DNA from: Brevibacillus brevis
Lineage (GTDB): Bacteria; Bacillota; Bacilli; Brevibacillales; Brevibacillaceae
Length of the DNA: 64,000 nt
Assembly: GCF_900637055.1 (NCBI RefSeq)
Contig: NZ_LR134338.1
Coordinates: 351,501 to 415,500 of the forward strand
Direction: 5' to 3'
Shown in pieces: positions 1,554 through 30,862 of this stretch (positions are counted from its first letter, which is position 1; each line of letters begins with the position of its first letter). The translations under genes were made by a program, and so were the position numbers. The notes below the pieces were generated by a model. That model did no database searches, was not told where the DNA came from, and saw only the letters and a program-made list of their open reading frames with translations.

Positions 1554-2534
1554 ATGCAAAAAGTTATAGTTGTAGGGGCAGGGCATTGGGGGATTAATCA
1601 TGTGAAAACATTTTACGAACTAGGTGCGCTTGCTGGTGTAGTAGAAACTAATGTTAGTTCACATGTAGAGTTGATAAAGGAATATCCTGATGTATCAATA
1701 TTCTCTTCACTTGAGGAAGGACTTGCAGTTGAAGCCAATGGGGTTGTGATTGCAACTCCTGCGCCTACTCATTATACATTAGCGGTACAGGCGATGCTCG
1801 CTGGCAAAGATGTACTGGTAGAAAAGCCTATGACACTTTCTATGAAAGAGGCTAAATCACTGGTTGAGGTCGCCAAAAATACAGATCGAATTCTAATGGT
1901 CGGACATCTTTTGCTGTATCAACCGGCTATTCAGAAAATGAAAGAGCTTCTAGACCAAAATGTAATCGGCAAAGTTTGCTCCATTCATCAAGAGCGCATG
2001 AAGCTTGGAAGAGTTCGTTCCGTGGAAAATGTGCTGTGGAGCTTCGGTGTCCATGACATTGCTGTTCTCTTGTATTTAATTGGGAAAGAGCCTGTTTCTA
2101 TACAAGTAAACGGCCAAAGCATCGTTCAACCGACTGTCGAAGACGATACGCATCTTCATTTGAACTTTGCAAATGGTATCCAAGCACATTTACGTACATC
2201 CTGGCTCTGGCCAATACAGAAGAGATCAATGGTTATTACCGGAACGGAAGGGTTTCTGGTATATGAAGAAGATAAACAGATCGTTACCTTATACAAAAAG
2301 GGTGTAGGAAGCGATTTACAAAACTGGTCTACCGGAGAGGAAATCGTTTACCAGGGTGGTACGGAAAATCCGCTAAAAAACGAATGTGAACATTTTCTTG
2401 CTTGCATACAAAGCCGAGCACTACCTCTATCAGATGGAAAGAATGGAATGGAAGTTGTTCGTATTTTGGAGCAAGCATCCAGACTCCTTGAAAAGGAGGA
2501 GAATAGCATTGAGCGACGAGTTCTTCAAGCATGA
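1554..2534 (+). CDS. Gfo/Idh/MocA-family oxidoreductase (WbpB-like)
   Basis: 326 residues from the ATG at 1554. The frame stays open upstream, but the Rossmann fold begins immediately at [13 protein letters not shown], so the internal ATG is chosen; it lies 22 bases after the dehydrogenase stop. VEKPMTLS is the family EKP motif whose lysine takes part in catalysis, and FGVHDIAVL follows in the C-terminal domain. In the WbpABDE pathway this enzyme oxidises C3 of UDP-GlcNAcA to a 3-keto sugar. The function is assigned by family plus operon context. The 3' end overlaps the next gene by 26 bases. Confidence 0.85.
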
Positions 2535-3120
2535 GTCAGCATACGTCGATGAAGGGGCCAAGGTCGGAAAAGGAACACGGATTTGGCATTTCTCTCATGT
2601 TATGGGTAAAGCAGAAATTGGTGAAGGATGTAATCTTGGACAAAATGTCTTTGTTGCGAATCATACACGAGTAGGAAATCATGTTAAAATCCAGAATAAC
2701 GTTTCATTATATGAAGGGGTGATTTTGGAGGACTATGTGTTTTGTGGTCCAAGCATGGTTTTTACAAACGTCAAAACACCGCGTTCGGCTTTTCCACGCA
2801 ACACGAGCGACGATTATTATGAAACAACAATCAAGTACGGAGCTTCTATTGGAGCCAATGCAACTATTGTATGTGGCGTAACGATTGGGAAATGGGCGTT
2901 CGTAGCAGCTGGTGCGGTTGTTACAAAAAATGTACCTGATTATGCTTTAGTGGCAGGAGTACCTGCAAGAATTATTGGCTGGGTATGCCAGTGTGGTGAA
3001 GCTTTGGCGGTTACTGCTGATTCGGAGACCGCAAAGTGTGCTAGCTGCAATCGGACCTATCGAAAAGCGGAAAGTGGAGAAATGGATATCTATCATGAAG
3101 AAGCGGAAGTGGGACAATGA
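2509..3120 (+). CDS. UDP-3-amino-sugar N-acetyltransferase, hexapeptide family (WbpD-like)
   Basis: 203 residues from a TTG at 2509, chosen because AAAAGGAGGA ends 8 bases upstream and homologous sequence ([16 protein letters not shown]) starts just after. Repeated hexapeptides ([30 protein letters not shown]) form a left-handed beta-helix, closed by [11 protein letters not shown]. Expected role: acetylating the 3-amino group of UDP-GlcNAc(3NH2)A with acetyl-CoA. The last 40 residues contain CQCGE followed by CASCNRTY, a four-cysteine zinc-ribbon-like tail. It overlaps the preceding gene by 26 bases and the aminotransferase by an ATGA, consistent with translational coupling. Confidence 0.87.
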
Positions 3121-28618: not shown

Positions 28619-28648
28619 TTGCCGAATTTTGTCACTTATGTGTAAAAT
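28619..28648 (+). promoter_or_regulatory. Candidate promoter of the tandem RNA / small peptide unit
   Basis: TTGCCG at 28619-28624 and TAAAAT at 28643-28648, 18 bases apart, just before the first RNA repeat. A moderate match to sigma-A. Confidence 0.45.
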
Positions 28649-28672
28649 AAAGGTAGGAAAGAAGCAAGGAAG

Positions 28673-28724
28673 TACGGACTGTATCTGGTCGCTTGGTCCG
28701 TATGGAGCCAGTAGCGAATCCAAC
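28673..28724 (+). repeat. RNA motif copy A
   Basis: 7-bp stem TACGGAC/GTCCGTA, loop TGTATCTGGTCGCTTG, then the box CAGTAGCGAATCCAAC (28709-28724). Loop and box each match copy B at 14 of 16 positions. Confidence 0.85.
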
Positions 28725-28752
28725 CTTTTCCGTAATGGAAAAGGAAAGGGGA

Positions 28753-28808
28753 GCAGGGGCTGTACTTGGTCGCTTGGCCTCTGCATCACGGACAGTAGCG
28801 AAGCCAGC
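28753..28808 (+). repeat. RNA motif copy B
   Basis: 8-bp stem GCAGGGGC/GCCTCTGC with one G-U pair, loop TGTACTTGGTCGCTTG, then the box CAGTAGCGAAGCCAGC (28793-28808). Offset from copy A is 81 bases for the loop and 84 for the box. Confidence 0.85.
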
Positions 28809-28841
28809 TTTCTCCACTATGCCTGAAGGGGGGAAAAGAAA

Positions 28842-28919
28842 ATGAAAAAATGGTTCGCAGCAATTATGATGGTGGTAGCAATCGTAGCAGCTACTTCTGC
28901 AAACTTCCATATTGGATAA
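28842..28919 (+). CDS. 25-residue secreted-peptide-like ORF
   Basis: Not recognised as a known family. The ATG at 28842 lies 8 bases after AGGGGGG, one of the strongest ribosome binding sites here. The peptide starts MKKWFAAIMM, continues as a hydrophobic alanine/valine helix and ends ATSANFHIG: a miniature signal peptide with an A-x-A-like ATSA site that would leave a short NFHIG tail. The design resembles Phr-type signalling precursors, and several Phr precursors carry a similar F-H-I/V near the processing site; no Rap-like receptor gene is present. A membrane micropeptide or a purely regulatory leader ORF are alternatives. A terminator follows 22 bases later. Confidence 0.6.
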   Translation: MKKWFAAIMMVVAIVAATSANFHIG

Positions 28920-28940
28920 ATAAGCGTAATGGAGAAACAA

Positions 28941-28968
28941 ACACCGCTTGGCTGAGTGGTGTTTTTTC
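28941..28968 (+). terminator. Terminator after the 25-codon ORF
   Basis: ACACCGCT (28941-28948) pairs with AGTGGTGT (28955-28962) with one G-T wobble, then a run of six T residues. It closes the RNA/peptide unit 22 bases before the DUF5317 gene. Confidence 0.85.
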
Positions 28969-28989
28969 TTCAAGCTTGGAGGAAACAAC

Positions 28990-29541
28990 ATGCTATTGGA
29001 TGTAATTGCCCTATCTTTTCTCGTAGCATTGCTGCGAGGGGGAAGAATCAAAGAATTACCTAAATTCAACCAAATGAAACTTCTTATCGTTACTATATTG
29101 CTGCAGGCTTGTGCAGTCTTCTTCCCTACGATCGGTGGCATTTTCATATCGATCGCGTATGTGTTTATTTTGGCCTTCCTCGTTTTTAATCGAGAATTTG
29201 AAGATATGCGGATTTTTTTAATCGGCTGGTTTCTGAATGCGATTGCAATTTGGTCTAACAATGGAAAAATGCCAATCGATTTAGTTCAAGCAGCAAAGCT
29301 TCCTTATGATTTAGAGCCAGTTATAAACGGGACGAATTTCAAGCATAGTGTATTGACGGAAAGTTCAAATTTTCCGTTTTTGACGGATGTCATTTACATG
29401 CCATCTTTCATTCCTCGGATTATTAGCATCGGCGATATTTTTATTATGTTAGGTGCCTTTTTACTTGTTCAGCGATTGATGAATAAACCGATTTCATTAC
29501 TACAACTTCGCGAAGGTAAAAGTTATGCGACAAAAAACTGA
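28990..29541 (+). CDS. DUF5317-type integral membrane protein
   Basis: 183 residues from the ATG at 28990 (TTGGAGGAAAC upstream). Four or more hydrophobic segments (LLDVIALSFLVALLRGGR; LLIVTILLQACAVFFPTIGGIFI; IAYVFILAFLVF; FIMLGAFLLVQRLM) and an extracytoplasmic SNNGKMPI segment typical of this uncharacterised Firmicutes family. Function unknown. It overlaps the membrane HD-GYP gene by 17 bases, so the two are likely co-translated and may work together. It sits just after the terminator of the tandem-RNA unit and may be expressed by readthrough. Confidence 0.75.
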   Translation: MLLDVIALSFLVALLRGGRIKELPKFNQMKLLIVTILLQACAVFFPTIGGIFISIAYVFILAFLVFNREFEDMRIFLIGWFLNAIAIWSNNGKMPIDLVQAAKLPYDLEPVINGTNFKHSVLTESSNFPFLTDVIYMPSFIPRIISIGDIFIMLGAFLLVQRLMNKPISLLQLREGKSYATKN

Positions 29542-30862
29542 TTATGCGGTTTGGATAAAAGGGATTGTTGTACAGGTTGGATTTGTCATTGCAGCAATCT
29601 ATATTTTTTACACATCTTCATCTGAATGGGCTGCTCGTGAGCATTGGGGGGTATTATCTACCTACACCCTCCTGACCATTTTTTCCTGTTTTGCTCCCGT
29701 GCGTATATCTAATACGATTTTAACAGTGAACAATGCTGTAATCTTTTCGGGTATCTTGTTGTACGGAGTCTGGGTCGGAGTATGGGCTGCTGTTATTGAA
29801 TCTTTAATCATTGCTTTCCTGGTAAGGTTTAATCCGCTAAAAGCTATTATTAACATTGGGCAATTGTTAATGACAATATGGACAGTAGCGTTTTTGAAGG
29901 ATTGGATCGAGGGCTTCGGAACTGTTTCTCCCATTATTAGCGATTTGTTTTTGGCTGTTGTGTATTGGTTTGTGAACCTGACTTTATGTGGATTGGGTAT
30001 CTCCTATTTTCATCAAATGACATGGGCGCGAACCGTAAAGATGATGGCAAAAGGCTTTACCTCGACTTACTTGTTGCTTTTAATTCTAGCCGGAGTAGGT
30101 TCACGATTAGTAGAGTTATATGGTCCGTTAACGCTAATTCCTATGATGATTGCGTTTATTACGATCAGCTACGTCTTTCATCATTACTATGACAATCTTC
30201 AAAGGCTTCAGCAAAAAGTAGAAGAGGTCAAATCATTCAATCACAACTTCTTAACGACGATGGCTGCTTCCATTGACGCACGAGATCGATACACAAGTGG
30301 ACATTCTCAGCGTGTAGCTTACTGGGGAAGAGAAATTGCGAGAGATATTGGTTTGGCCGAACGAAAAGTGGAGGATGTTTATATCGGGGGAATCCTGCAC
30401 GACATTGGAAAAATCGGCATCGAAGACGAAATTCTCAATAAAAAAGGAAAGCTGACCCCGGAAGAGTACGACAAGATCAAGCAGCACACGGTCATTGGCT
30501 ACGAAATTATTTTGCAAGCAGGGATGTTCAATGAATTGCTTCCTGCGATCCGCTCCCATCATGAGCGAATAGACGGAAGGGGATATCCGGATGGTTTAGC
30601 CGGGGATGAGATTCCGCTGATGGCGAGAATTTTAGCCATTTCAGATGCTTTCGATGCGATGGTCGCGGACAGGCCATATCGAAAAGGTTTGCCTGTGGAG
30701 GAAGCGCTTCAAGAAATCAGACGGGGCTCCGGTACCCAATTTGATCCGATATTGGCGGAGCATTTTATCAGAATCGTTCAGCGACTGCCGTACGAAGAGT
30801 TGCAGAGCATTATCGGAATAGAGTCCATCCCACAAAAACAGTTACAGGAGGCAATGAGATGA
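29525..30862 (+). CDS. Membrane-bound HD-GYP protein, putative cyclic-di-GMP phosphodiesterase
   Basis: 445 residues. The N-terminal 210 residues hold about six to seven membrane helices (an MASE-like sensory region), then a short coiled linker and an HD-GYP domain: GHSQRVAYWGREIA, GILHDIGKIGIEDEIL with His292-Asp293, HHERIDGRGYP with His345-His346 and GYP at 353-355, and DAFDAMVADRPYRKG. All metal ligands expected for cyclic-di-GMP hydrolysis are present. The start overlaps the DUF5317 gene and has only a weak AAGG ribosome binding site, consistent with coupling. Confidence 0.9.
   Translation: MRQKTDYAVWIKGIVVQVGFVIAAIYIFYTSSSEWAAREHWGVLSTYTLLTIFSCFAPVRISNTILTVNNAVIFSGILLYGVWVGVWAAVIESLIIAFLVRFNPLKAIINIGQLLMTIWTVAFLKDWIEGFGTVSPIISDLFLAVVYWFVNLTLCGLGISYFHQMTWARTVKMMAKGFTSTYLLLLILAGVGSRLVELYGPLTLIPMMIAFITISYVFHHYYDNLQRLQQKVEEVKSFNHNFLTTMAASIDARDRYTSGHSQRVAYWGREIARDIGLAERKVEDVYIGGILHDIGKIGIEDEILNKKGKLTPEEYDKIKQHTVIGYEIILQAGMFNELLPAIRSHHERIDGRGYPDGLAGDEIPLMARILAISDAFDAMVADRPYRKGLPVEEALQEIRRGSGTQFDPILAEHFIRIVQRLPYEELQSIIGIESIPQKQLQEAMR

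Follow-up and report, generated by a model that had tools for sequence, protein, structure and literature searches.

A tandem relative of the c-di-GMP-II riboswitch precedes a candidate peptide-signal gene and a membrane HD-GYP protein in Brevibacillus

A 25-codon ORF of Brevibacillus brevis is preceded by a tandem RNA which, judged from its sequence, is a variant or relative of the known c-di-GMP-II riboswitch and no new class. The ORF lies in a stretch of 64,000 nucleotides (contig NZ_LR134338.1, positions 351,501 to 415,500; hereafter the window), upstream of genes for a DUF5317 protein and a membrane HD-GYP protein. Comparison between genomes established the family of the first RNA copy, the conservation of the tandem, the selection acting on the ORF as coding sequence, the co-variation of the peptide tail with DUF5317 and with the membrane part of the HD-GYP protein, and the presence of similar modules elsewhere. 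We read these comparisons as pointing to a peptide system of pherotype-like character that would act through c-di-GMP; the model as a whole, in which a tandem c-di-GMP-II-type switch is combined with a peptide signal read by the HD-GYP protein, seems to us reasonably probable.

The features of the locus are listed in Table 1. The two RNA copies, A and B, share a loop (TGTATCTGGTCGCTTG at 28680-28695 versus TGTACTTGGTCGCTTG at 28761-28776) and a box (CAGTAGCGAATCCAAC at 28709-28724 versus CAGTAGCGAAGCCAGC at 28793-28808), each 14/16 identical; their stems are unlike in sequence and still paired. The 8-bp linker hairpin is perfect (CCTTTTCC, 28724-28731, with GGAAAAGG, 28737-28744) and reuses the 3' strand of copy A stem P1, and CTTTCTCC (28808-28815) is able to pair with GGGGAAAAG (28830-28838) at 7/8 positions, as an anti-Shine-Dalgarno (anti-SD) strand. 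Promoter-like and terminator-like sites (the latter at 28939-28964) flank the tandem RNA and the ORF in a compact unit, the promoter consensus being weak by itself (4 sites in the region versus 3.0 expected). The loops, boxes, paired stems, linker hairpin, SD pairing and compact unit had been described in an earlier note made from the letters of the window, and its observations are confirmed here. By eye, the promoter motif also stands before the cassette in relatives, including a locus devoid of the RNA (L197), and a terminator stem with a T-run follows the ORF in 34/35 relatives, all but G379. The promoter spacer, TTGCCGAAAATTGT and then a sequence like TGTAAAAT, appears to be kept as well, even in L197; it may contain a regulator site, and we take its TGCCGAA to be Spo0A-box-like.

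Table 1. Coordinates of the features described in the text (window positions, save in the last line)
Feature	Position	Strand	Basis
Promoter-like site, TTGCCG, 18 nt, TAAAAT	28619..28648	+	consensus scan
Copy A, full c-di-GMP-II-type aptamer	28654..28734	+	RF01786 covariance model; pairs counted in 25 genomes
Copy A pseudoknot	28687-28692 with 28714-28717 and 28720-28721	+	RF01786 alignment
Copy A pocket letters (positions 69, 70, 73)	A28718, U28719, A28722	+	our alignment
Linker hairpin CCUUUUCC/GGAAAAGG, exclusive with copy A stem P1	28724..28744	+	pairs in 25 genomes
Copy B, read here as a second, shortened aptamer	28743..28815	+	covariation; full-length counterparts in L202, L203
Copy B hairpin	28753-28759 with 28778-28784	+	pairs in 25 genomes
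Copy B pseudoknot	28768-28773 with 28798-28801 and 28804-28805	+	100% of cells paired
Copy B pocket letters	A28802, G28803, A28806	+	alignment
CUUUCUCC, 3' strand of copy B stem P1 and anti-SD	28808..28815	+	pairing in 25 genomes
Shine-Dalgarno region of the small ORF, ending 3 nt before ATG	28825..28838	+	sequence
25-codon ORF, MKKWFAAIMMVVAIVAATSANFHIG, candidate pre-peptide, variable tail NFHIG	28842..28919	+	order genomes, pN/pS
Intrinsic terminator between peptide ORF and DUF5317	28939..28970	+	terminator scan; relatives by eye
DUF5317, predicted membrane protein	28990..29541	+	PF17248 E 1.3e-28
Membrane HD-GYP protein	29525..30862	+	PF13487 E 8e-39; HHERIDGRGYPDG motif
c-di-GMP-I-GGC riboswitches before DUF5317 operons	L348 2838-2920; L349 1875-1959; L351 4139-4224		

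Copy A aligns to the c-di-GMP-II model RF01786 over its whole length (1-84 of 84) with 50.5 bits, i.e. an E-value of 2.2e-10 when 361 bases are searched and of 3e-9 when 5 kb are. The score is 3 bits below the gathering score of 53.5, which 7/25 genus copies A exceed (canonical single copies set aside). The loop and box shared by A and B are the RF01786 pseudoknot strands, GG-UCGC with GCGA-xx-CC. In a phylum-wide sample of 85 RF01786 matches, G-C, U-A and A-U are all found as first pseudoknot pair, so that the U-A type of the window is ordinary for the family. In the window no Rfam family is found above its gathering score, and copy B gives no RF01786 match up to E 10; 6/25 copies B reach E 0.1 in the genus. 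The interpretation of the earlier note is thus partly supported. It had seen here a possible undescribed riboswitch without match to the cyclic-di-GMP-II core, a view that the alignment of copy A contradicts, and it had itself named an Rfam hit as counting against it: copy A gives one, under the gathering score, and copy B gives none in the window. What stands is a real cis-regulatory RNA before the 25-codon ORF, tandem and covarying, with an anti-SD strand and a competing linker hairpin.

A wide DNA pattern scan found the same pseudoknot letters in several phyla. Its 111 loci are not usable as counts, c-di-GMP-II members being mixed with chance matches. Six of them, picked for shortness, were checked against covariance models: four match c-di-GMP-II below the gathering score, one matches c-di-GMP-II-GAG just above its own, and L050 matches neither. 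Two other candidates were discarded: a GcvB match at 28811-28970 as due to chance (21.5 bits versus a gathering score of 42), and a shifted register of the box giving a three-pair pseudoknot, where position 39 would face A, C, U or G, by eye without pairing support.

Pairing was assessed on 25 aligned genus leaders, the rows of which are related. The drawn structure, with both pseudoknots, has 95.7% of its cells paired, versus 38.9-43.2% when slid by 1-3 columns. Nine of its pairs are changed on both sides, a figure matched by 5/500 shuffles, and no shuffle out of 500 reaches the covariation score, so that the structure is more than a chance one; further pair types are in no excess over shuffles (458/500 reach their number). 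The weakest helix is copy A stem P1 (79.6% and 76.0% of cells paired). In the copy B hairpin 5/7 pairs are changed on both sides, with 95.8% of cells paired. The pseudoknot pairs scarcely vary within the genus, the six of copy A being kept, and invariant, in 25/25. The alternative pairings are maintained too: the linker hairpin has 92.3% of its cells paired and 5/8 pairs changed on both sides, and CUUUCUCC, paired with its upstream strand in 95.2% of cells in the drawn structure, pairs with the SD in 86.9%. The alternative set as a whole (linker hairpin plus CUUUCUCC/SD) reaches 89.7%, and still 58.7-79.0% when slid because its strands are purine and pyrimidine runs. Both sets are kept, which is consistent with a switch.

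Folding was computed without pseudoknots, then with the pseudoknot strands held out. The mean pairing probability of CUUUCUCC went from 0.46 with the SD and 0.33 upstream in the first run to 0.32 and 0.50, respectively, in the second. The freedom of the SD rose by more than 0.1 in 11/25 leaders, fell in one and shifted less in 13. The anatomy fits a translational ON switch, to which the folding lends weak support.

Within the genus, all 26 genomes have an RF01786 match at E 0.1 and 25 have the A+B tandem locus; the cassette is also present in named Brevibacillus records. In the exception, G017, the small ORF has no RNA before it, and the canonical aptamer of this genome lies at another place. 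Canonical single c-di-GMP-II aptamers (L005-L008, around 1501-1584; 63.8-68.8 bits) occur in four genus genomes including G017; a terminator-like stem follows them by eye, and the ORF after the L005 aptamer (1721 onward) presumably resembles a globin-coupled chemotaxis transducer. In other genera of the order the small ORF is found in nine genomes. Two full aptamers precede it in G384 and G385, and one in G381 and G383, all with matches under the gathering score. G382 (L200) has a single degenerate aptamer whose pseudoknot pairs poorly by eye, perhaps a decaying riboswitch, and G373, G374, G378 and G379 have none at the ORF. In L202 and L203 full c-di-GMP-II-like aptamers stand at the place of copy B, and the B. 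fulvus locus shows a compensatory change in its first aptamer, where the pseudoknot GG/CC is replaced by GA/UC. By eye, relatives with one aptamer or two full ones have a pyrimidine strand at the aptamer 3' end able to pair with the SD. A limited literature search returned nothing joining c-di-GMP, riboswitch and Brevibacillus, nor c-di-GMP-II riboswitch, variant and Brevibacillus.

As other genera of the order carry none, one or two full aptamers, copy B is most readily seen as a second aptamer that has been shortened. There is nevertheless a nearly even chance that it has ceased to be an aptamer and serves as a decoy expression platform, the pseudoknot strands of A and B being exchangeable. 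Copy B is without the 5' part of the family's internal loop; the linker before its box varies between species in length and letters, the loop, the box and CUUUCUCC being almost invariant; and few copies B resemble RF01786 in the genus, as seen above. Such a decoy accounts less well for a hairpin kept by compensatory changes and for the retention of the pseudoknot strands.

According to a passage of the review PMC7288161, the contacts made with the ligand in the solved c-di-GMP-II aptamer include A69, A70 and G73. Numbering copies A and B by our own alignment, we found A-U-A instead of A-A-G at 69/70/73 in copy A of the window. Genus copies A read A-U-G (16/25) or A-U-A (9/25): position 70 is always U, and position 73 is divided between G (16) and A (9). 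Genus copies B read A-G-A (16), A-A-A (6), A-U-A (2) or A-U-G (1). Position 69 is A in 25/25 copies A and 25/25 copies B, not the G of the c-di-GMP-II-GAG consensus; the names of such Rfam variants presumably derive from pocket positions. The 85 RF01786 matches of the phylum sample comprise 67 A-A-G, 7 G-A-G, 4 A-C-A, 2 A-U-G, 1 A-G-A and 4 others, so that the pocket is unusual, yet not unique in the family. With letters that depart from the usual A-A-G, c-di-GMP is a probable, not certain, ligand; since 18/85 family members are also without A-A-G, the change weakens the claim on the ligand more than that on the family. Another ligand, such as 3',3'-cGAMP or another dinucleotide, would explain why positions 70 and 73 have changed, and the GAG variant, with its difference at 69, adds some weight to that idea. 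We regard it as rather unlikely: the same changes of the pocket (A-C-A, A-U-G, A-G-A) are found inside the family, L202, whose second aptamer also precedes this peptide gene, has a plain A-A-G there, and the operon encodes an HD-GYP enzyme.

The small ORF itself is present in 35/39 genomes of the order and in 7/7 genera; among 398 phylum genomes a profile search found it in one, that of the window. It is exactly 25 codons long in 34/35 cases and 26 in the other. The pN/pS ratio, 0.23 over 20 distinct genus ORFs and 0.29 over 29 of the whole order, indicates that it is selected as a protein. It thus has the makings of a peptide pheromone gene, namely a conserved small candidate pre-peptide gene under protein-level selection. 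The peptide body is kept through IVAATSA, with one change (in G017), and the last five residues are variable (NFHIG, NYNIG, NWTSW, NYHIG and others). Among 57 same-tail pairs, 29 have synonymous differences in the tail codons, a sign that selection acts on the tail itself. Against our reading of the locus, the peptide occurs without riboswitch in G017, G373, G374, G378 and G379, and a terminator stands between the ORF and DUF5317. The window peptide matches no Pfam family, and no NCBIfam family above cut-off; for it and eight phylum peptides taken together, the best pheromone-named match was PhrK (E 0.12, 12.7 versus 35 bits). A link to arginine, suggested by the position of the element between argF and a gene that we take to be argG-like, was dropped: neither was found in the 4.6 kb next to the peptide gene of G017.

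Gene order is constant. DUF5317 comes next after the peptide ORF in 35/35 loci and the HD-GYP gene then follows in 34, the remaining locus (L031) ending inside DUF5317. The AlphaFold model of DUF5317 (mean pLDDT 87.3) has long helices round a mixed segment, and we read it as a membrane protein; its fold found nothing in the PDB with E <0.001, and a limited literature search gave no paper on this domain. The HD-GYP protein has a membrane part (about 1-240) and then an HD-GYP domain of c-di-GMP phosphodiesterase type, with H292, D293, H345, H346, E347, G353, Y354 and P355 invariant in 24/24 sequences. Its model is of middling confidence (mean pLDDT 76.1, pTM 0.52). The catalytic part matches the fold of the c-di-GMP-bound HD-GYP 9rbz (E 2.4e-8) and also 4mcw; by motif and modelled fold, the protein is a predicted c-di-GMP phosphodiesterase of HD-GYP type. 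The membrane part is weakly like ECF S-components, with a best E of about 0.2, a probability near 1 and a TMt of about 0.5-0.7, and like MASE9 (PF20972), a membrane input or sensor domain, at E 0.014 and below the cut-off (15.7 versus 24.3 bits). Among the papers listed by a limited literature search on HD-GYP with peptide signals, none was judged relevant by its title. The genome of the window has 14 GGDEF matches and one DUF5317; at G000:C1:2951357-2951726 two partial GGDEF matches adjoin in different frames, perhaps a broken gene. In L202 (G384), the HD-GYP frame at about 1736-3061 is open for 330 residues only and the membrane part is cut, indicative of a broken gene or an assembly error.

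We then compared the distances between peptide tails with those between neighbouring sequences, as partial correlations given the argF distance (2000 permutations), in 24 genomes, in 14 dereplicated ones and in all 33. For the HD-GYP membrane part (HD-N) the partial r was 0.92 in the 24 genomes and 0.85 in the 14 (0/2000 permutations each), and for DUF5317 0.90 and 0.82. The catalytic part (HD-C) gave 0.17 (117/2000) and -0.03 (1063/2000). Over the 33 genomes the values were 0.73 for HD-N, 0.66 for DUF5317 and 0.36 for HD-C (2/2000). Sequences nearer to the tail gave 0.08 (RNA leader, 455/2000), 0.32 (peptide codons 1-20, 11/2000) and 0.66 (60 nt after the stop, 0/2000), and the 350 bases upstream of the leader, mostly 3' DNA of argF, still gave 0.31 (6/2000) after correction. 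The correlation is not simply with nearness. In the genus, the peptide end co-varies with the putative input (membrane) part and not with the output (catalytic) part, as would be expected of a peptide pheromone.

Single pairs display the same pattern. For G003 (NWTSW) versus G025 (NYHIG), argF is 93% alike, HD-C 97% and HD-N 45%; G003 and G020, both NWTSW, are 78% alike in argF and 66% in HD-N. For the pair G000/G002, 90-base windows are 0.91-1.00 identical between -495 and the start of the ORF; at codon 22 the identity falls to 0.50-0.83, and from about 1575 bases onward, within the HD domain, it returns to 0.94-0.99. The G003/G025 pair is similar, with a break at codon 20-21; the older pair G020/G000 is less sharp, and no break is seen in the same-tail pairs G000/G023 and G002/G011. 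In quick trees, with groups chosen for AU tests after the identities were seen, HD-N rejects G003+G025 (AU p 8e-7), which HD-C and argF join (support 99). The NWTSW group including G003 has a support of 100 with HD-N and is rejected by argF (p 1e-85) and HD-C (p 5e-5); the NYNIG group has an HD-N support of 83 only and is rejected by HD-C (0.007) and argF (4e-6). The match between tails and candidate sensors is not clean: NYHIG is common to G025 and G015, whose HD-N parts are 54% identical, and the HD-N parts of G001 and G013, with tails one residue apart, are 95% identical.

Because tail, DUF5317 and HD-N are immediate neighbours, block transfer can yield such a correlation without recognition. 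Block travel, or else co-evolution of a contact surface, would also be the explanation if the small protein were not secreted and acted in cis as a membrane subunit of an HD-GYP/DUF5317 complex. An N-terminal KK followed by a hydrophobic body suits one membrane helix, gene order is constant, and DUF5317 correlates as well as HD-N. We give this possibility about the same modest credit as that of another ligand. A block replaced between species with abrupt DNA breakpoints is more like self/non-self signalling, tails are kept by synonymous change within a type, and the nearer spacer and peptide body correlate less well. Much less plausible still is a bacteriocin-like toxin with DUF5317 or HD-GYP as immunity partner: a small hydrophobic product does stand beside membrane proteins that vary with it, but the catalytic residues of HD-GYP are all kept, enzymes of this type change a second messenger, and the peptide is present in nearly all genomes of the order. 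We know of no immunity role for HD-GYP enzymes.

Beyond the order, DUF5317 is present in 100/348 phylum genomes. One rule, applied to modules and controls alike, was used to look for an upstream small ORF (18-45 codons, SD, early K/R, hydrophobic body); the peptides are thus recognized by where they lie and how they are built, and profile similarity to that of Brevibacillus plays no part. ORFs of this plan were found at 41/59 DUF5317 modules; the 218 other ORF starts of that DNA gave five, of which three are peptides placed after DUF5317 of such modules. By eye, one of the 41, in L347, looks false, and the rule misses the peptides of L333, L344, L346 and L347. These figures replace a former count of 48/60 versus 2/163, for which modules were also searched downstream (4/48) and controls were extra-filtered. 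Many of the peptide bodies end in AGGA or AGGG, then a short tail; none of eight peptides searched is above the NCBIfam cut-off.

In the closest pairs of three other genera, g58, g110 and g90, peptide bodies are near-identical, tails differ, and the proteins are 91-97% alike in the catalytic and 58-64% in the membrane part. The membrane part is likewise less conserved in g57 and g18, where same-tail pairs are scarcely nearer to each other in that part than different-tail pairs, with 0.73 versus 0.67-0.74 (g57) and 0.54 versus 0.49-0.51 (g18); G180/G028 differ little (0.87 and 0.92). Outside the genus, where comparisons were made without a flanking gene as species control, the direction is seen, though not in every group. 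In G136, G137 and G366, from three genera, a c-di-GMP-I-GGC riboswitch stands before the DUF5317 module (Table 1); the operons of L348, L349 and L351 have a small peptide, MKKVFFWLTV..., placed after DUF5317. Among the loci scanned for riboswitches in this part of the work, none gave a c-di-GMP-II match at the gathering score. On the whole, we incline slightly towards a phylum-wide, unnamed signalling family, in which the HD-GYP membrane part, partnered by DUF5317, would read the variable tail of a 24-34 residue pre-peptide, and tails and sensors would be swapped between species as pherotype alleles. In Brevibacillaceae a c-di-GMP-II-type riboswitch would govern translation of the pre-peptide and so link cell-cell signal and second messenger in a loop; a c-di-GMP-I-type one precedes such an operon, independently, in three other genomes from three genera.

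How does the locus compare with known systems? The comQXP and agr systems have a short pre-peptide with a variable end, a variable neighbour, and a receptor with a variable membrane part and a conserved catalytic part. By analogy the present locus resembles them in all these respects, with the difference that the candidate receptor is an HD-GYP phosphodiesterase and not a histidine kinase, and the neighbour is DUF5317, not ComQ or AgrB. On the RNA side, c-di-GMP-II (RF01786, clan CL00127) shares with copy A the hairpin, the pseudoknot and two unpaired letters before CC; here, unlike there, pocket positions 70/73 are changed, a shortened second copy is present and the P1 3' strand is an anti-SD for a 25-codon ORF. 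The c-di-GMP-II-GAG variant (RF03169) has the same UCGC/GCGA pseudoknot letters but G69 where A69 is found, and RF01786 is the better match for copy A. Tandem c-di-GMP-II riboswitches are already known: text of PMC9481103 reports 59 doublets and 9 triplets, most of them before surface-anchor genes in Paraclostridium and relatives, and Brevibacillus is not named in its main text. As far as described there, these tandems, like ours, place two aptamers of the same class in a single leader; ours stands apart by its shortened second copy, shared translational platform and peptide target. A new class unrelated to c-di-GMP-II can practically be dismissed: the window has no family above its gathering score, but copy A aligns end to end with RF01786, and the pseudoknot is maintained within the family by paired exchanges of letters.

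The mechanism that we favour, a tandem switch controlling a peptide signal, derives for its riboswitch half from family membership and anatomy, and for its peptide half from comparative genetics. Copy A would be a complete aptamer and copy B a shortened one that has come to belong to the switch; the two states would have five purine or pyrimidine strands in common. In the absence of ligand, the P1 3' strand of copy A would pair with the linker and CUUUCUCC with the SD, so that the ORF is off. Binding of a cyclic dinucleotide, most likely c-di-GMP, would let copy A stem P1 form and free the linker strand, which would then close copy B stem P1 by taking up CUUUCUCC; the ORF would be translated (ON). 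The pre-peptide so made, 25 residues long, would have a hydrophobic body of signal-like character, followed by a tail in which about five residues vary. This tail would be the signal, read outside by the membrane part of HD-GYP, which with DUF5317 would act as receptor or partner; HD-GYP would then alter c-di-GMP, and the riboswitch would read c-di-GMP back. The identity of the ligand, the ON direction, secretion, the receptor role and the effect on c-di-GMP are the steps that we infer.

The RNA alone would be a modest extension of a known class; its target matters more. If the model is true, a peptide signal of Gram-positive bacteria would be coupled directly to c-di-GMP, without a histidine kinase as intermediary, and DUF5317, a conserved domain of unknown function, would be given a role. 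The reading of such a signal would also offer a reason why a riboswitch guards an ORF of only 25 codons.
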